From positions 6,254,001 through 6,318,000 of the forward strand of contig SCHM01000001.1 of NCBI GenBank assembly GCA_004123355.1: 64,000 nt of DNA, read 5' to 3'. The DNA is from Amphirosellinia nigrospora (taxonomy: Eukaryota > Ascomycota > Sordariomycetes > Xylariales > Xylariaceae). Position 1 is the first letter of the stretch. Every line of letters starts with the position of its first letter. The notes beneath the pieces were generated by a model. It worked only from the letters and a program-made list of their open reading frames with translations, had not been told where the DNA came from and made no database searches. Made by a program: the position numbers and the translations under genes. Shown here one piece after another: positions 17,768 through 55,052 of this stretch.

Positions 17768-20700
17768 ATGGCTTCCAACGATCTAACTTCAGCGGAGGCC
17801 CCGCCCTGCTAACAGGCTGCTCGGCAAGGTAAAGGATGAGCAGCCGTCTCGTCACCCCTCGCCACAGCCAACACACTTCAACGTCCCGCTCAATCCTGAG
17901 AGGATTAATGGCCATAATGGACACAATGGACACAAGGTCTTGCGATCCGCTACGGTCGGATACATTGCACCCGGAATTCAAGGGCAAGGACGAACAAATG
18001 AAGTCAGGTAAGGCCTATTAATCGATAGTGTCCGCCAGTGTTTTGCTAACAAATCACAGTCAAGGAGCTCATCGGAAAGGATAAGGAATCCCAGCTTCAC
18101 ATCTAGACGAGCAGATATCCTGGTTCTATAATGAATTGGCATTGATTGTCTACTTTCAGATGGAGAGGCGGAGGTCATTGCGAACAACATCACATCAATG
18201 TATGCTGCCAAGGTCGCACCACTCCCGCATAGACAAGCGAGAAGAAATACAGTAGATATGGAGTCTGTGGACCACGCCATCTATATTGACAGCGTTCCCG
18301 GACTTTCCAACATCAAAGGTCCGCGTTACGAGAATCGACTGGAAGCAAAGTACCTTGATCACACAGATCCCGATAAAAGATTCCGGGTTGAGACCTTTCG
18401 CTCGCCCGTATCTTTGTCCAACGATAAATCGTCTACCACGTCTTTACGTTGCTACTTCGTTTATCAGTGTCAGTTTGTGGACTCAAGGCCAGATCCCGAT
18501 GAGACTCGTCTTGAAGTCATCAGCGATAGAATGTTCCTTACCAAGGCGACTAAGAACACCAAGCTCATTTATCACGACATCATCAAACTGGCTGTTAGCC
18601 GTACGGGTCCGGTCATCGAAGTATTTGACATAGAGGGAACAGAAGAGAAACGTTTGTCGTCGCTTTCCGTTCCCGTACGGCTCGCGGTCTTTTCAGCGCT
18701 TTGAGTGACTTATACCATTACTATGGAGTTACTAGCTCCAGGAAATACGTTGAACAGTTCTCAAATGGCATCACTGTTATGAGCATCTACTTGAAGCCGG
18801 CGACTAACATCGAGGCCAACATTATGCCATGGAACAATCAATTCATCAGATCACCAAAGAAATATCCCTCCTGTACTGCATCCCGCAGAACAAACTTCAT
18901 CCATTGTTTGCATCCGGCGAGCTCAGTCTTCAGGAAACCGTGTATGGACATTGTGTTTGGGTTTTCGTGCAGCATTTCCTGAACCGTCTCGGCTCAGAGT
19001 ACACCTCTATAAGGAATGCCCTGAATGCCACTAACGCGGCACACGCGGAGATGCTTGCCAAATTGAAGCGCCGTCTGCGCACGGAGACATTTACTCCTGA
19101 CTACATCCTAGAGATTATCTCGTCTTACCCTCAACTGGTTAGATCGTTATATGCAGCTTTTGCCAGTGTTCATCTGGCTGTTGGTGCTGGGTTCGAACGG
19201 CATCTCATTGCCCCAACTCCCTCGGTTGATATCCTATCAGATGCTCATCTGAAGGAAAAGATTAACCGGGAAGTGTCAAACGAACACGAAGAGATGGTTA
19301 TGACTGCATTCCGTATCTTTAACAGCGCTGTCTTGAAGACAAACTACTTCACACCTACCAAAGTAGCCTTAAGCTTCCGCCTTGATCCGGATTTCCTCCC
19401 AGAATCAGAGTATCCCCGTCGCTTATATGGCATGTTCCTTGTCATCAGCGCTGAGGCACGTGGCTTTCATCTTCGATTCAAGGACGTTGCTCGAGGAGGT
19501 ATCCGAATTGTTAAATCCCGCAGCAAGGAGGCATTTAGTATTAATGCCAGAAATCTATTTGACGAGAACTACGGCCTCGCAAGCACACAACAGCGCAAGA
19601 ATAAGGATATTCCAGAAGGCGGTTCGAAGGGTGTTATTTTGCTTGACGCTAAACAGCAAGACCGAGCGCGTGAGGCATTCGAGAAATATATCGATAGTAT
19701 TTTGGATCTACTCCTCCCCGCCAAAACACCTGGCATCAAAAATCCCATCGTCGATCTACATCGCAAAGAAGAGATCATATTCATGGGCCCTGACGAGAAC
19801 ACAGCTGACCTGGTCGACTGGGCTACCGAGCATGCTCGTTTCCGAGGCGCTCCGTGGTGGAAGTCCTTCTTCACAGGAAAGTCTCCCAGATTAGGCGGCA
19901 TCCCACACGACGCATATGGCATGACTACATTATCAGTCAGGGAGTATGTAAAGGGCATCTACCGCAAGCTGAACCTTGACCCTGCCACAGTCAAGAAGAT
20001 GCAGACCGGCGGCCCTGACGGCGACCTAGGAAGCAACGAAATACTTCTCAGCAATGAAAAATACACTTCCATTGTAGATGGTTCCGGTGTACTTGTCGAT
20101 CCCAATGGCATCGACAAGGATGAATTACTTCGCTTGGCCAAGCAGCGTGCCATGATATCTCAATTTGACGTTTCAAAGTTGTCGAAGGACGGTTACCGAG
20201 TACTATGCGACGACGCGAACATCACGCTACCTTCCGGCGAGTTTGTCGGTAGCGGTACATCCTTCCGCAATATCTTCCATTTGAGAGATTCCGACCTGAC
20301 AGATATGTTTGTACCTTGTGGTGGCCGCCCCGAGTCCATTGACCTTTCGACGGCCAATAGGCTTATCAAGGATGGGCGAACAAAAATACCCTATATCGTC
20401 GAAGGAGCCAACTTATTCATTACCCAAGACGCTAAACTGAAGCTAGAAGAAGCTGGATGTGTTCTGTTCAAAGATGCCTCGGCGAACAAGGGTGGTGTCA
20501 CATCATCATCACTCGAGGTTGCGTCGCTCAGCTTTGACGATAAAGAGTTCGAAGAAAATATGTGCTGCGATGCTCGAGGCCAAGCACCAGAGTTCTACAA
20601 GGCGTACGTTAAACAGGTTCAGGAGACTATTTGCGGTAACGCCGTTCTGGAATTCGAAGCAATTTGGAAAGAACATGAAGAAACAGGTGTGCCTCGCTCG

Positions 20701-31223: not shown

Positions 31224-32563
31224 ATGTCGACCACTGCTGGGTAAGTTGCGTTGTCCTGCATTGCGCTGTGTTGCGCTCTTTGGGCGATTCACCAATCCCT
31301 CTCTTCAACCGGCTGACCCGGAGATATAGAGCCTTCATAGCTGGCGGCATCGCCGCCTGCGGCGCCGTCACGGCCACGCACCCTTTCGAGACGGTCAAGA
31401 TCCGGTATGCAACCTCCTCCTCCTCCTCCTCCTCCTCCTCTCCTCCTCCTCCTCCTCCTCCTCCTCCTCTCTCCTCCTCTCCTCCTCCTCCTCCCTCCCT
31501 CCTAGGCGATCTCGAGGCCGCGGCACCGTGAGCAGAATGTTGCAGGTATAGAGCTGGGTAGTGAGTGGGCTGACGCAATGGTCGTGACGCAAACAGAATG
31601 CAGTTGCAGGGCGAGCTCAAATCGAAGGGTCATCAACCACACCACTACCGAGGCCCCTTCCATGGCGTCAGCGTCATCGTCCGGAATGAGGGCGTTCGAG
31701 GGATTTATAGGGGTCTAGGGTGCGCATACGTATACCAGCTCCTGCTGAATGGGTGTCGGTTAGGCTTTTACGAGCCCATGCGACATAGGCTTGCCTCGCT
31801 CCTCCTCAACGACGGCGCCAAGCAGAACCTCGGTATCAACATGTTCTGCGGTGCGTCGTCAGGCGTTCTCGGGGCTGTCGCCGGCTCCCCCTTTTTCCTC
31901 GTCAAGACTCGTCTCCAGAGCTACTCACCCTTTCTACCCGTCGGCACCCAGCATAACTACCGTAATGCCGTCGATGGCATGGGCCAGATTTACAAGGCCG
32001 AGGGCGTGACTGGTCTCTACAGGGGTGTAGGTGCGGCCATGATCCGTACCGGCTTCGGCAGCTCCGTACAGCTGCCCACCTATTTCTTCGCGAAGAGGAT
32101 GCTCACGAAGCATGTGGGTCTGGAAGAGGGCGCGCCACTGCACTTAGCGAGCAGTACCGTGTCAGGTTTCGTGGTTTGCTGTTTTATGCACCCGCCAGGT
32201 GAGCCTCTTATTCTACCGTGTGCTTGAACGGTCATGAAATCCTGAATCTGGCTATAATCGAAGCACTAATTTCCAAATAATACAAAACACAATGTGGAGT
32301 GCTAACACATAATGTTAACAGATACGATCATGTCCCGTCTTTACAACCAGCACGGTGATCTGTACAAGGGTGTTTTCGACTGCTTAGGCAAGACGATCCG
32401 CACTGAGGGCCTTCTCGCCATCTACAAGGGCTTCTTGCCCCATCTGGCTCGAATATTGCCTCACACCATCCTGACGCTCAGTCTTGCAGAGCAGACAAAC
32501 AAGCTCATCCGCAAGGTTGAATCAAAGATATTACCCGCCTCCGAGTTTGGCAATGCTCCATAG
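31224..32563 (+). CDS. oac1: mitochondrial oxaloacetate carrier (Oac1-type, SLC25 family)
   Basis: An inner-membrane carrier; yeast Oac1 moves oxaloacetate, sulfate and isopropylmalate. Exons: 31224-31240, 31330-31404, 31597-32198, 32322-32563; all phases agree, 311 aa. The three SLC25 repeats show PFETVKIR, PFFLVKTR and PPDTIMSR at the ends of the odd helices. GSPFFLVKTRLQSYSP followed by PVGTQHNYRNA is typical of the Oac1 subfamily. The first exon codes only MSTTAG minus one base. Intron 2 (192 bases) contains a (TCC)n microsatellite. The gene is convergent with the Ncs2/Ctu2 gene, with 523 bases between stops. Confidence 0.92.
31413..31503. repeat. (TCC)n microsatellite in carrier intron 2
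   Basis: About 90 bases of interrupted TCC repeats just inside the donor of intron 2 of the oxaloacetate carrier. The minus strand reads as a long poly-Glu/Arg/Gly frame, which is an artefact. The length should vary between strains. Confidence 0.95.
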
Positions 32564-41192: not shown

Positions 41193-44100
41193 CTATACGG
41201 GCTTTTCCACAGTTTCCCAGGTGGCCGTATCTCGGTTCCAAGTTGCGAATGTCGACGGCTGATACTCAGGAATCTTAAAGGGGAATGCTGGGAGCCAGGA
41301 CGACCGCTCCCTGAAGCCTGGGGCGCGTAGTTGGGCACGTATATAATCAGCAAGTCTTTGAAGCGCCGCCATGAAAGCCTTATTGATGTGGACACGTCTT
41401 ATGCGCCCAAAATAACCTATTGCCGGTCAGTTACCGTCAACCGAGGCTACGTCACAGAGAGGGCGTTACTTGCTTATAACATCCATTGCCTCCTTCACGA
41501 AAGCCTCTCGGCTAGTGGCCCTAACAATCCCCTCATTGGTAACGCGCCTGAAGAACCGATCTCCCCCTAGCATCTTTCCTGGCTTTGATGACCCCCCGCG
41601 GAGGTTAATGGTGGGCGGGAATTGATCTCCCACCGTCTGGCTCCGCTGGTGTGTGGACGTGTTGACCGCTATCCAGGCTGATACCCGCCCCTCTGTCCGT
41701 AACGGCAATGCCGCCAACATGAGCAAGCCTACGCCATATGGCAGTGGTTAGCTCGATATCTCTTGACTCGCTTGTATAGACAAGTCTAACCTAGGCAATA
41801 GAATAACCATGTAGGTGGATTACCCGTAGTCGAGCCGATTGGCGGTATCTTGGAAACCGAATCCCCTTGAATACTTAGTTAACACAGAGTAATCTTGTTG
41901 GGTGGTATTTAAAGCGACTATTCACTTGACTGCCAGCCAGATGAAAAGTAAGCCTTAAAATATTCGGGAGTTGCGTTGGGACATACTCCGGAAAATTATT
42001 TCATTGTTGAATGCCGTAACCGGGAGGTTTCGTTCTAATCCCCACGCAATATCCGCGCATGCGTCCTTGTCTCTGGCTTCATACGCCACGATGAATTTAT
42101 GTACCGTTTTACGGAATTCCACATAACCCCACGGTGTCTAGTCATCCATCTTAATTAGCTACTTTCGACACGGAGACGACTTTGGGAATGTAATGGACCC
42201 TCACGAACCCTGAGCCACGTTCTCAAGGCCGAGTCGTACCACGACCGTCTCGAGGACTGCCAAATCGCTTGTCGTTCAGCCCACCCCCGTGTCATGACCT
42301 GAAATCGAACCCCGCGTGCGGCGTCAGGGTTCGTTTTGACGGTCCTGTACACTGCTCTAGAGGTATATCTCTCTGTTACTTTCCTCGTGGTGAAGAGGTT
42401 GGGGAACAAAAACCCGTCTTTTCCGGACGGCGGCGCCTGATCCCAGAAATAATTAGACTGTAGCAGCCAAAATAATGCTGCTGGAAGGAATGAAACCTCA
42501 ATAGGTGCGCCAAGTTTCAGTAAGGGGCTGTGAGAAATCAAGAGTTAGTAACTGCCGATTATAGCAAAGTCGACTTGTGTATAGCATGTTTTCGCAAGTA
42601 TGTATGAGTCTGTATGTGGCCCAAAAAAGCACGATCCTTCCCAAATCGAGCAATAAAAGATTTAGAAATACTAACTGGCTGTCTGACTTCGCGTCCCAGC
42701 GGGTTACGGCATATTGACTCGGATATTGTATATTCAGCTCCAGCATTGGAATGTTCTGCGCGTAGTTGCCGCCGCGAGGAAAGGGAGCGTCGTACTATCT
42801 CATCGAGTCAGCAAGCCCAGTTCTAATCTCCGTTATTAGACCTGTCAAAATCGAGATGACTCAACTGGTGTTCCGCCAAAGACGGCTGCTTCGAAAGAGC
42901 GGCCGACCTCCTTAATGGGTTCATTGTTTATATACTGGATAGATAGGGTTTGGTTAGATAGAGTTTTTGCGTAGGTTGTCGTCGACAACCGTAGAACACA
43001 TACCGGGTCTTCATAGCGCTGTAACTTTGTGCTTTCGGCCACGTTCTTTAACACCTCTGGACTTAAGTTTGCACCTTCATCGATTCGGGACCTAAATATT
43101 GCGTGCATCAACTCGTCTTTAGAGTCTCAGTTAGTACATAAGTTGGGTATTACATCTGTCACCTTTAATTTCTGGCCCCTTTACTCGGTAACAAGCTAGT
43201 TGACTTGCATAAACGTAGGGTGGTTTCGACTACATTCAAGCACAACCGAAATAAAGCGAAAGCAAACCTACGTAGTATCTAGATGGGATCTATTATTAAT
43301 ACATTATACTTACACTTTAGATGTATGTATCACACTTACCGTCATCGCTTGCCTCACATGTAACATGCATCTCTCAGCAATACTGATATTAGCGCCGCAA
43401 AGTAACTTCAAGATATTCGAATTGATCCTGCATATCTGCCCACTTTGAAAAGAATTGGTAATTCCACGCGGCCTTTGGTTCGAAGGAATAAAACCCCAAA
43501 CCGTACGCCTCATCAAGTGTAAGACGAAATTATAGCGTCTCAACATGTTGGGTTCAACATCTCGGCCTAAAAATGGTTTTTGCATTTGCCTGCATATATC
43601 CCTCTCGGCGTCTGGGTCCATGAGGATTCTGTAGTCTTGGCTTCCGATATGCTTTTCATAATCGGCTGGGTCTGCGTAAAGCTCGTACCATAATTGGACG
43701 CGACCGTATAGCAATCCTCCAAGCCTGTGATCCTATTAATGATTCTAAACATGAGTCGCTCGATTCAGAGACCCCGGATCTTACCACGTATTGTTATCCG
43801 AGACAAGGGTTGATAGAATCCGGCTTGCTATCTCGATACTAAATCGTAGCTCCTTCCAGACCCGGTCGTCATCTACACTCCACGTACTCGTCTGCCACGT
43901 CGTCCCATCTCTTCCCACAATGGTATCCGAGTAACCCTGATCTAAGTCATACCACCTATCTCTACACAGGAACGGTGCCCAGCTAGTCTCATCCACTTCG
44001 ATTCTCCGTGACATGTAGTCCTGAAGAAGTATAGGGTAGAGCCGATCATCCCCTAGCCGATGCCCGCCCAATAACACGGGTACATTCTCGTCCCATGAAA

Positions 44101-44455
44101 GGACGCTGTTCAAAGGTGGGACACACCATGATGGGATACCGAACAATAAATGGCGCTGATACTCCTCCGCAACCAAAATGTCGTCGATTTGTTCGTCGCG
44201 AACCGGTATCGTAAATTTATCTATCGAGGGGAACGAGTCGTAATATTGCGGGTGAAGACTGGATCAGTATGTTAATTTGCCGTTGAATGTTCAAATTTAT
44301 CCGCACGGTTGCGAGACTACGTACTCGGGATGTAATGGTGCAACTCCACAGCGTAAGAGGTCGTCCCTCCTCTTCAATGAGAATGGGGGATCCTCGCCGG
44401 TGCCAAAACGTTCGGTCCAGGGTGATGCCGGTTCATCAAAAACGGAGCCAGCCAT
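41193..44455 (-). CDS. putative zincin-like metallopeptidase, 743 aa, 11 exons with a 7-base microexon
   Basis: Exons on the minus strand: 44455-44325, 44258-43785, 43724-43340, 43278-43272, 43116-43004, 42934-42866, 42794-42676, 42527-42209, 42137-41987, 41728-41470, 41397-41193. All phases close, giving 744 codons with the stop. Exon 3 ends AERCMLHVRQAMT. The 7-base exon ATACTAC adds Ile, Leu and the first base of His; exon 5 then gives HELMHAIF at residues 333-340, an HExxH zinc motif. Candidate third ligands are Glu in NEPIKEVGRSFE (about 375-385). Other conserved-looking blocks are SPWTERFGTGEDPPF, LLFGIPSWCVPPLN, ICRINSNILKLLCG, VGDQFPPTINL with PGKMLGGDRFFRR, and a C-terminal FPFKIPEYQPSTF. 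There is no signal peptide, so it is probably intracellular. I recall unnamed fungal proteins of this kind but no assigned function. The last intron and the 258-base intron before it are the least certain. Confidence 0.75.
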
Positions 44456-50131: not shown

Positions 50132-53100
50132 CTAGTCACTCAAGGCCTGCAGGGCCTGGCCTAAAGACACAACTTTGAGGCTACGACCCCTTTTTAAACC
50201 AGGGTTCGTGTTTGTGATTGTAGGACTTAGAGCTTCTTGCCACTTGCGGAAAACGCTCTTCATGTCTCGCGGAATACCTTCAAGCACAACAGTGGAGACT
50301 GGCACAAACGGTCTGTCTTCCGCACTGGCTGCTAGGATTGCGTATTCTTGCGCGAAGTCTAGCGCGTTGTGGAATGAGGCATATTCAGCTTGTGCGTGCG
50401 ACCCCACAACGATATATAATTCGAAGAAGGCATCAATTATGTAGATGCTTATTGGCGATAAATCGGGCTGAGAGAATGTGGATAGCTCTACGATCTGAAG
50501 TGATGATGCGTTAGTGACGAGATGTAAATGTGGAATTCAGAAACGATTCACCTGCTGCTTAGAGGCAGCGTCCGACAGGAATAGTCGGCTGCTGTATTTG
50601 TCGTAATTGGGCTTGAGCCGCCAGTGGTCCGCAGAACCAAACCTTTTGGCACCGCCAAAGAGATCCCAAAACACTGCGGGCTCGTTGCCCTCCTCAACCT
50701 CTTCCAATTCGCCCGAGAGTGCATAATCCATTCCTATCAGACGTGCACAGCTGAGCTCGTCTGCACTGCTACCTTTGCCTTTCCACAAGTAACATTTGCC
50801 AGCTTGAGTGATGAGATAGGGGAATCCAGAGCAGAGCGCCGACGATGTGAAATCGACTTCATCAAAGACAACGTGTTCGCGATACCGACGTCCACAAAGC
50901 ATGTGCGGAGCGAGTGAGTCATATTTATTACCTGAGCCACGTTGGGTAATCACAATACCGCCAAGAGCTTGGAGAAACTCGGGCGTCTCTTTCCCTTGTT
51001 TAACCTTGATCAAGACGCCACCAAAAGCACGTGCCTCACGGGCTACGGCAACTTCCACATCTTCGATGATAGACCTAGATACTTCGTCTCCGGCCCAGAA
51101 ATAAACTTCGGCTATTTTTCTGCCGATTTCGTTGTTGAAAGTGTGGGTGCAAATATACATTTCATGTTCGAACAACGTGCGCTCGTGATGTGCAGGAACC
51201 GGTTGCTTCTTACCGTCAGCCGACAACTGAAATAGCTGGGCGCTTAAAGTCTGGATTTTTGACGGTGTTGAATCTGGTCGTCGCATGAGCAACTCAGCAG
51301 TGTCGACACGATATTCTCTGCGACGGCGATCTGAGCCAAAGAAATCTCGAATCATAACCGAGGGATCACTTGATTGTTTGGTAGGGGATCGCATGGGCGA
51401 AGTAGTGACGGCAAGCGACTTAAGTCCCGGTGACGATAAGGATCCACTCGACGTACGAACTGGGGGGTTCGGCAGTGGCCTGGGACCTGAAGGAGCGACC
51501 ACTTTACTTTCGGCTTTGGTACCAATACCACCAGCTTCAGTCCTTGGAGACTGTTGTTTTGGGGACAAGGATGAAGGGGAAGGTAAGGGTACTTTGGGTT
51601 TATTCAATGACGGTGAACGCTGCTGTTGTTTTTGTTGTGGGTCTTGGGTTGATGTTTTGTCGAGAAAACTTCCCATTTTAAGGGGGGTCTCGGACGTTGT
51701 AGGTCGCTCAGGCGCGCTTCTCTTATCTACAGTCGACGCAGCGTCTGCAAACTGGGAGAAACGGTTTATGTTGAGCTTTCCAGGGCTTGCAGATTTGGGG
51801 GATATCTGCTTTGGCTCATCCGAAATCTTCCCCGATATAGACTGTTGCCCCTGGGCTGCTAATGCCGCGATCTGTCCAAGAATCTTGCTCTCTGGCTTTG
51901 AATTATCGGTAGCAACTTCACTCGGTGCCGTTGGTTCGGTAGCAAGTTTTGATAAACCCATTAACGTAGTTGGCTTTGGACGTGGTTGTATGGGTGTTGT
52001 GTATGCCTTTTTTGAAAAATCGAGAGGATTCGCTTGAGACAAGGGGGCAGCGTTATCTAGTTGCATGATTGAGCTTCCTACCCGCGCTCGTTTAGGTGAA
52101 TCGGATTTAGACTCTTCGTTAGTTATAAGCGGCGCAGGAGATTTCGTCGGTGCTTTTCTCTTAGGGCCGCGCGCACGATTCTTGGTCATGTGCATCAACT
52201 TCGGCCCAGATCCGGCCTCATTATCGTGAGTCTCAGCTCTAGAGCCTGAGAGGCTTGTCTCTACGGAGTTGGCTCTGGGGCCCGAAGTGGTAGGAGGCCC
52301 TCTAGAGAGAAAACCAGCAAGAGCAGGGTTGAATCGGTTCGCCAACGCACTTCCGCCAATCTTTCCTGGGAGACGTGCCGGGCTATTCATCTCAGTGGCC
52401 CGGTCTGTTGAACCACCGGTAGGTCTAGGAACGGAAAGTTTTCGTATGCTCAGTGGCTCTGTTGATGTGCTTTGCCCTTCCGTTTTTGGGTTTGATGGCT
52501 CCATAATAGAGCCACGTTTCTCCAGAGTACTGAAACGCTCGAATCTTCCTGCAAGGCTTCCCGATACGGAATCCCGCTGAGATATGACACTCGGTCTTCG
52601 TGACTCTATCCCTGTCGCATCCGAAGCAACTGAGTCTCGTTTAACAGTGTTAGAACGACCAAGTTCAGCTCGTTTTAAAAGGCCTTCAGGAATTGGATTT
52701 TCACTCGACACACTATTATTTCGTGTTGTGCCTCGGCCTTCGGACTGGGCCACCTTGAACTCCTTTTTCTTAGTCAAAATAGCATCTTTGAACTCATCTA
52801 CTCGCTCTGACTTTTGGGGACCACCTGTAGCATTCAATGCTGCCTTCCCCCTAGTGATGTTGTTTTTCAATTCATCCGGAGCCTGGTAGTTCTGCGTTGT
52901 TGTCCTCCGAAGATTGCCAAACACGTTCTTAAATTCTACCTCATTTGAACTGGTAGGAGGAGCGGCTGGTGGTGCTCTGGCTTTCAACGTTGCCCGAAAA
53001 TCTTTCTTCGGGGGTGTTGCAGGTTTTGCTTTGCTGACTGAAGGTATTGCTGCTTTAATTTCACCGACAGGCTCAGATTTGGATTTGACTGGACCTGACA

Positions 53101-55052
53101 GCGTTGGCAGTTGTGGTTCGCTAGGTTTTGTGTTCATCACAGGAGCATTGATGCTGCTGATAGAGGGAGATGGGCTATGCAGACTGCCCCGTACCACTGG
53201 GGTAGTGGTCATGCCAGGCGCAGAGGATCTCATAAGCCCACCAATGCTAACTTGATGTTTGTGTGACACGACTGGGGCCTTGCTGGTTTCTGTTCCAGAG
53301 TTACTGGCCTTCTGTGCTTTCGCCTTCTGGATTTCTGCCATCCATGCAGGCTGGCTAGGCGGAGCCGGAGCCGTTTTTGGCTTCGGAGATTCGGGCTTGT
53401 TCAGCGCCGATTCAAGCCAGCTAGATTTCTGAGGACTCCATCTACGAGGATCCATGGTTTTTGAGGGACTAACTGGAGGTGTGACTCTTCCGGAATCCTG
53501 ACCTTGCGGCTCCGGAGACGCCGCAGTATCAGGTTTTACTGAAGTACCGATTCTCGACGCGGGTCGTTCTTCTTCGTAATCCTCACTCGAGCTAGGCCTT
53601 GTCTGTTCCGAGAATGGAACCCCAAGCACGCTTATCGGTCTGGCTTTGGAGTTGGCTCTTGCCCGAGCCGTAGGGTCATAGCTGTTGCGGTTTGAAACGA
53701 TGGAATCCGCACGTTGCAACCCCGGGGGTGATTGCACATTCCACCTTTTGCTAACACTCTCAGACCTCTTCAACATAGCGCTTTGTACAAAACCTCCCAT
53801 GCCTTTCGTAGGTGAAACAGGTCGTTCTGTTCTAGTGGGAGATGTTCGGCCGGGTGGAGGAGAGAGTGGACCATGTGTTTCCTGGGCTAATTCGACATCT
53901 GGTTGACTGTTATTCGGAGGGGGGTCCAGTCTCTGGGCATCGGATAGGTTGGTAGGTGAAGTAACTGTGCTCCGAAGTGCCGGTGACTCCAGGAGGGAGG
54001 TGTTTCCGTTGCGGAAAGACTCGCCTGATGTACTGCGCGACATACCCGGTAGCTGGGTCTGGGCGGAAGATAGGTCTACGGTTTGTGTATCTTCGACCTG
54101 CGTTCGCCTATAGGCAGCGGAACTGGTGCCTCTATCGGCAGTCTGGCGGAACCAAGCAGGGTCCTTGGAAGCCAGTGCAGAAGCGATCTGGTCCCTTGAT
54201 GGGGTCTCGGCGGTGGTATCCTGTTCAGGGGTATGATTGGAAGAACGGGTTGCATTTTCAGCTGCAAACATAGAGAGCGGGCGACTTCTTGATTGCTCTG
54301 AGGCCTGTGAATTGGGCCGTCTCTGCCATGAAAGACCCCGAGCGGTAGTCCCCGTCCGCGTAGGGGACGATGGGTAATTTGGCTTGATTTCGGCCTCCAG
54401 AGGCGACTCGTTCTCCTTTGCCGGGGAAGTTGAAACTGACGCGACAGCAGCCATGTTGTCTTCCTCAACGTTGGGTGCAGACTGCAATTGGGAACTAGAG
54501 GGCGGGAAGAGAATTGGAGACGCGGCCAGATCCAGGCGTTCTGCACGGTGACCGTCGTTGGGCTGAGGCGGCGGCGGGGTGTTTACCGGCGACGCTTTTT
54601 GGGGGGAAATGGATCTAGCGCGTTCTGGTGGGAAACTCGATTGTCAGCAGTTGTATTCAAACAGACGACGGTAGCACTTGTGATAGCAACAGAAGCACAA
54701 GCAATAATAGAGCGCGCACTAAGTGCTGCGGCGGGATCACTGTCTGCGCACAAATGCCCCGATACGGAGCAACGAGGCGCACCATCACGGGCCGAGAGGC
54801 AGCAAAGATGGAACAGCAGCGGGGACAAAACAATGCCCAAAGCACGCGGGATAAAATGTAAAATAGCGCGAGGTAGGATGGCGACGAGATGTCAAGAGAG
54901 GAGAGGCTCTTACCACGACGACGGGCTTGCCGCTCCTTGCGGTCTTGCAGTATCTTCTCCTCTAATTCCCTCGACCGAGCTTCATCCTCCTCGACTCGGC
55001 GTTCTCCCAGCTCTTTAACCTGGGACAGAAAGCGGGACACGTCCTCAGACAT
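50132..55052 (-). CDS. DUF4045 and gelsolin-domain protein, 1524 aa
   Basis: Exons: 55052-54914, 54624-50552, 50494-50132; phases agree. Residues 1-46 form a charged coiled-coil start (SRFLSQVKELGERRVEEDEA, RELEEKILQDRKERQARRR). A disordered Ser/Pro/Lys-rich region follows to about residue 1130, with many SP/TP sites, short KAxxPP-type blocks (FRATLKARAPPAAPP, FKNVFGNLRRTTTQNY, LKNNITRGKAALN) and a QQKQQQ run. This is the DUF4045 layout. The C-terminal third has gelsolin-like repeats (AEVYFWAGDEVS, GKCYLWKGKGSSADEL, SFHNALDFAQEYAI in the last exon). Such proteins are expected to bind actin at tips or septa; that is inference. Intron 1 is long for this locus (289 bases). No frame damage across 4 kb. 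Confidence 0.87.

Follow-up and report, generated by a model that had tools for sequence, protein, structure and literature searches.

A putative 7-nt exon that would complete an HExxH motif in an uncharacterised gene of the ascomycete Amphirosellinia nigrospora

Introduction

Tiny exons are already in print for fungi, and the one considered here is, if confirmed, a further example. In Fusarium, a 1-nt exon of CYP621A completes a PKG motif and is backed by 20 orthologues, an intronless relative and RNA reads, and the extracts of that report used here describe accurate splicing under several growth conditions (PMC12940212). A 20-nt microexon of Xlr2 in Trichoderma encodes two Cys residues of a zinc cluster and is regulated by glucose, according to extracts of its description (PMC11121469). 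P450 genes of Phanerochaete chrysosporium are reported to have exons down to 6 bp (PMC1184071), and codon-sized microexons are attributed to the nank genes of Tuber melanosporum (cited in PMC4986451). A further paper, PMC3990503, was set aside as a precedent, its extracts concerning read mapping only.

Here we describe a putative exon of 7 nt in Amphirosellinia nigrospora. With CYP621A, as presented in those extracts, it shares a filamentous ascomycete host, an inference from phase mismatch, the completion of a conserved motif and an unusually long apparent intron, and it differs in length (7 nt against 1) and in concerning a zinc motif, not a P450 (PMC12940212). The likeness to Xlr2 is that of a microexon in a filamentous ascomycete which encodes zinc-ligand residues and is absent from the consensus gene model; the Trichoderma case differs in its Zn2Cys6 DNA-binding domain, glucose regulation, genus-wide conservation and RNA-seq data (PMC11121469). 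Phanerochaete chrysosporium is alike in having very short fungal exons and unlike as a basidiomycete whose examples lie in P450 genes (PMC1184071). The Tuber nank genes belong to a filamentous ascomycete and also have very short exons, which differ in being multiple, alternatively spliced and presented as a means of diversification (cited in PMC4986451).

Sequence data and methods

The sequence analysed, hereafter the window, is the whole stretch of 64,000 nt from contig SCHM01000001.1 of assembly GCA_004123355.1, and all coordinates refer to it. Splice sites were scored with weights set by hand from what we take to be the ascomycete consensus. Eleven junctions were solved and ten were used for training; conserved genes supplied six of these, and the model of the HExxH gene the other four. 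At one kynureninase junction two solutions were tied at 8.7; the 54-nt solution was taken on a presumed protein likeness, the alternative being 72 nt long with its branch motif 31 nt off.

Codon log-odds were computed from the exons of the HExxH gene itself (545 codons) against its introns (412 overlapping triplets). GT-AG joins were searched with donors from 43430 to about 43309, acceptors from 43280 to 43081 and introns of at least 40 nt. Shuffled sequences preserved dinucleotides and covered either the core 43306-43140, with the 3' end (and hence ELMHA) kept, or the whole interior 43306-43096.

Gene model and splice sites

Open frames and splice sites give the following model.

42155 to 44455, reverse strand: gene model of 8 exons and 556 aa, from open frames and splice sites; no family assigned; may continue downstream.
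43340 to 43724, reverse strand: exon 3, with a phase-0 end before GTAAGT, from open frame and splice sites.
43279 to 43339, reverse strand: intron 3, 61 nt, GTAAGT...CATCTAG, score 11.6.
43272 to 43278, reverse strand: putative microexon ATACTAC, which would encode Ile, Leu and base 1 of His, from sites, phase and shuffle test.
43117 to 43271, reverse strand: intron 4, 155 nt, GTAGGT...TACTAAC...AAAG, score 9.6.
43004 to 43116, reverse strand: exon 5, the remainder of the split His codon followed by ELMHAIF, from the model and codon use.
42866 to 42934, reverse strand: exon 6, carrying EVGRSFEAAVFGG with a Glu as candidate third zinc ligand, from sequence.

On inspection, the donor GTAAGT lies at 43339, TAG ends at 43279, ATACTAC occupies 43278-43272 and GTAGGT follows at 43271; AAAG ends at 43117, and exon 43116-43004 stops before GTATGT. 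The phase is 0 before ATACTAC and 1 after it. Spliced with the microexon, the sequence reads V-R-Q-A-M-T-I-L-H-E-L-M-H-A-I-F, the first His codon being split as C/AC. An earlier note on this DNA had placed the sites and phases around ATACTAC, and the split in the active-site His codon, exactly so. Joined straight to 43116, position 43340 gives ACG/ACG AGT TGA (T-T-S-stop), a stop after two residues. With 7 nt, which is not a multiple of three, and flanking introns that score 11.6 and 9.6, the putative exon falls among microexons as usually understood (about 30 nt or less, usable flanking sites), with the AAAG acceptor as a caveat.

The joint after exon 6 (42934-42795, reverse strand) is doubtful. 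Junction 6 of the model was excluded from the training set: the model join scores -0.4, and the best alternative, 42907-42795 (6.5), deletes the Glu of EVGRSFEAAVFGG. Further downstream, open frames at 42137-41193 (reverse strand) probably prolong the gene, with possible extension joins at 42208-42138 (score 8.4) and 41986-41729 (score 12.0, 258 nt, good sites). The joint after the likely tenth exon is also doubtful, and for the joint to the frame 41426-41193 the search range offered no solution that keeps the frame. A length of 743 aa, given previously, could not be reproduced: the model yields 556 aa in 8 exons, and the downstream extension fails at that last joint. Because the same gene has the 258-nt intron candidate with good sites, the long intron between exons 3 and 5 needs no hidden exon, and its length was dropped as a sign of one. 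A tblastn search of the window found no paralogue of the 556-aa protein (off-gene matches at E 0.21 or worse).

Splice scores, codon use and shuffled sequences

The ten training introns score 7.0-14.4, a range that is partly circular because these introns were picked with the same hand-set weights. All of their acceptors are CAG or TAG, and a branch-point-like motif stands 10-19 nt from the AG. Both introns flanking the putative microexon lie inside this score range, and TACTAAC is placed 14 nt upstream of the AAAG acceptor, also within the training distances. An AAG acceptor, such as that of intron 4, occurs in none of the ten training introns, and it is here that the model is weak.

Stretches of eight codons have a mean log-odds of 3.1 in exons (sd 2.5) and -3.7 in introns (sd 3.5), a separation that is flattered because the averages were computed on the training data themselves. 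ELMHAIFR, which the microexon model retains, has +0.9; VSVIHTSK, the stretch added by the main single-intron alternative (43313-43092), has -5.9. By this measure ELMHAIFR lies closer to exons and VSVIHTSK resembles introns, the opposite of what an intron at 43313-43092 requires. ATACTAC itself, followed by AC, is intron-like, with -3.4 over three codons.

Shuffling the core produced a microexon of up to 10 nt whose introns each reached a score of 9 or more in 171 of 3000 sequences, and one that also completed the PS00142-type zinc signature in 6 of 3000. When the two scores together had to reach 20.9 (the real introns sum to 21.1), the figures were 100 of 3000 and, with the signature, 4 of 3000. 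When the whole interior was shuffled, microexons arose in 29 of 3000 sequences and none of the 3000 carried the signature (20 and 0 by summed score). For microexons of up to 30 nt with the 3' end kept, 187 of 1500 sequences gave one and 12 of 1500 gave one with the signature (115 and 5 by summed score). All these counts are to be read with thresholds that were chosen when the real scores were known, and with the freedom to inspect many introns and motifs left uncorrected.

Reading frame and assembly quality

Between the flanking frames, the range searched contains eleven open single-intron joins and 194 open two-intron joins whose middle exon measures 1-38 nt. The microexon model has the top score among the 194 two-intron solutions, and HExxH is absent from all eleven single-intron joins. 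The insertion of 7 bases, said earlier to restore the frame, is indeed required for the pair 43340/43116; it is not the sole way of doing so, and the claim that the microexon alone restores the frame fails on the eleven single-intron joins, of which 43313-43092 has consensus sites.

Pfam recognises several further genes in the window, namely those for kynureninase, NAD-specific glutamate dehydrogenase (GDH2), an M16 peptidase whose nearest PDB match is the alpha subunit of yeast mitochondrial processing peptidase (MPP-alpha), an FHA/RING protein, a mitochondrial carrier, CTU2, PEX11, a DUF4045/gelsolin protein and an APH-type protein. The mitochondrial carrier gene has a Ser/Pro low-complexity run at 31400-31510 (forward strand) that is open in more than one frame. 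At 50537-54643 (reverse strand), one open frame of 1368 aa contains DUF4045, DUF7904 and a gelsolin repeat.

Two of these genes change frame at places too tight for an intron. The GDH2 gene shows three frame switches at 18088-18838 (forward strand), where profile coverage overlaps and leaves no room for introns. At about 18165-18171, GDH2_N positions 21-49 are followed by positions 48-65 in another frame, both below the cut-off; at 18638-18656 and 18820-18838, GDH_2nd positions 3-138, 133-199 and 194-224 fall in three frames, above the cut-off. In the MPP-alpha-like M16 gene, at 23916-23872 (reverse strand), the flanking segments align to the yeast protein up to residue 40 and from residue 56; 43 nt stand where residues 41-55 need 45, and the frame changes. 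The net effect is a single switch; if a middle frame is used, for which no PDB or Pfam match was found, it becomes two single-base events. No switch was noticed in the DUF4045, PEX11, kynureninase, carrier, FHA/RING and CTU2 genes, whose open frames were inspected and not systematically aligned. The switches in the housekeeping genes are most likely uncorrected small assembly indels.

Because of the frame switches in GDH2 and MPP-alpha, phase mismatch is weaker evidence than the earlier note supposed, and with in-frame single-intron joins also available the phase argument alone is weak. The locus may contain no microexon at all: a small assembly indel would lie near the junction, and the real genome would join exons 3 and 5 by one intron. 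This explanation is favoured by the four or five frame switches, counted over some 13.6 kb of conserved coding DNA (by hand-set coordinates), and by the doubtful joins elsewhere in the HExxH gene. We hold it to be unlikely: one switch per roughly 3 kb would make an error in the critical stretch of about 100 nt a matter of a few per cent, and a well-placed microexon that completes the signature would have to be there by chance, as in 6 of 3000 shuffles.

Single-intron alternatives

Two of the single-intron joins are listed for their coordinates.

43092 to 43313, reverse strand: rival single intron GTAAGT...TTTAG, in frame, which takes out ELMHAIF (join search, codon use).
43112 to 43339, reverse strand: rival single intron with GAG acceptor, in frame, giving AMT-LMHAIF without HE (join search).

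Removal of the one intron 43313-43092 would give a protein reading AMTVSVIHTSKV-SRIDEG that has no HExxH. The join is in frame and stop-free, has a consensus donor and a YAG acceptor, and scores best among single introns, a score that is not directly comparable with that of the two-intron model because different numbers of terms are summed. We consider it improbable on several counts. By codon use, it would retain the intron-like VSVIHTSK and discard ELMHAIFR. TACTAAC would stand about 38-39 nt from the AG, against 10-19 nt in training, and another AG comes earlier, at 14 nt; of the branch points closer to the acceptor, the best has a score of 3.5. The intron would have to contain the motif by chance, as happened in 0 of 3000 shuffles.

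More doubtful again is one intron with an unusual site, either 43339-43112 with its GAG acceptor or 43335-43117, which has a weak donor and reads TVNELMHAIF. Both are in frame, with TACTAAC at the usual distance from the acceptors (19 and 14 nt). The GAG acceptor has no counterpart among the ten training introns, however, the donor at 43335 scores -0.9, and both joins drop the HE of the motif.

Protein function

In the microexon model, TILHELMHAI matches, as a regular expression, the signature pattern that we take to be that of PS00142, so that HExxH stands in a fitting context. Fungal proteins of like make-up, with HE..HA and then E.G...E...FGG, probably occur. The Glu in EVGRSFEAAVFGG is, from the sequence, possibly a third zinc ligand.

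When the 88-aa core around the microexon was compared with Pfam, Peptidase_M78 was touched over 23 residues at E 0.013 (15.7 bits against a cut-off of 22); with the full protein of 556 aa the same family came at E 0.19, below its cut-off. The likeness to Peptidase_M78/IrrE, which are zincins, lies in HExxH with fitting neighbours and in this weak match; the difference is that the match is below the family cut-off and ends with the motif region. Tox-MPTase3 (E 0.26) and flagellinolysin (E 0.18) were also touched by the 88-aa core in the HExxH stretch, below cut-off. Among four junction cores compared with Pfam, metallopeptidase models were touched by the microexon core only; of the three rival cores, two had no match and one touched DUF5743 at E 0.16.

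No family came above cut-off in Pfam or PDB with the full protein, or in Pfam, NCBIfam or PDB with the microexon core. The best NCBIfam score for the core was 11.2 against a cut-off of 205, and the best PDB matches (E 0.12 for the full protein, 1.2 for the core) are not metallopeptidases. Matches of the full protein to SopA_C (Pfam, E 0.026), PLDc_2 (Pfam, E 0.29) and SopA chains in PDB (E 0.12 or worse) were taken as chance. A zinc metallopeptidase is therefore suggested by the motif.

A plasmid collection gave no tblastn match to the protein at E 1. In viral and prokaryote genome contigs, six 8-residue patterns, which reach close relatives only, picked out 15 and 13 stretches, none of them confirmed by tblastn. 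Literature searches with the motif letters returned, among the matches listed, none related by title, and those for HExxH, zincin, ascomycete and uncharacterized returned, among the matches listed, no obvious match by title.

Regulated splicing as a proposed switch

The earlier note had proposed splicing as a switch of enzyme activity, for which we find no support. A microexon that is real and regulated, so that inclusion or skipping switches the enzyme, has a precedent in the glucose-regulated 20-nt Xlr2 microexon of Trichoderma with its two zinc-cluster Cys residues, as far as the extracts of that work describe it (PMC11121469). It is very improbable here: the exon length is not divisible by three, and skipping leads to M-T-T-S-stop, which removes the protein and does not leave an inactive form. 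The CYP621A exon, the closest fungal counterpart among ultra-short exons, is reported to be spliced accurately (PMC12940212). Since skipping yields an early stop, splicing could silence the gene, not create an inactive isoform. Least credible is the full proposal of a 7-nt exon holding part of the first zinc-ligand codon, in an undescribed fungal metallopeptidase family, whose conditional inclusion toggles the enzyme.

Conclusions

A 7-nt exon that completes HExxH is the best of the models compared and is probably, not certainly, real. The sites, phases, scores and rarity in shuffled sequences stand in its favour; the in-frame rivals and possible indels stand against it. We lean, by a little, towards a constitutive exon at 43278-43272 in an uncharacterised fungal gene, giving TILHELMHAIF. 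In this constitutive model, the 7-nt exon would be spliced in vivo between introns of 61 and 155 nt and would always be included; the HExxH would bind zinc, possibly with the Glu of EVGRSFEAAVFGG as third ligand, and the protein would be a zincin-like metallopeptidase.

If the exon is false, the locus is a warning that plausible microexons can 'repair' phase mismatches in assemblies that bear indels. If it is real, annotation pipelines would probably misread the gene as one without an active site, and the HExxH metal site would join the fungal motifs that are completed by ultra-short exons.
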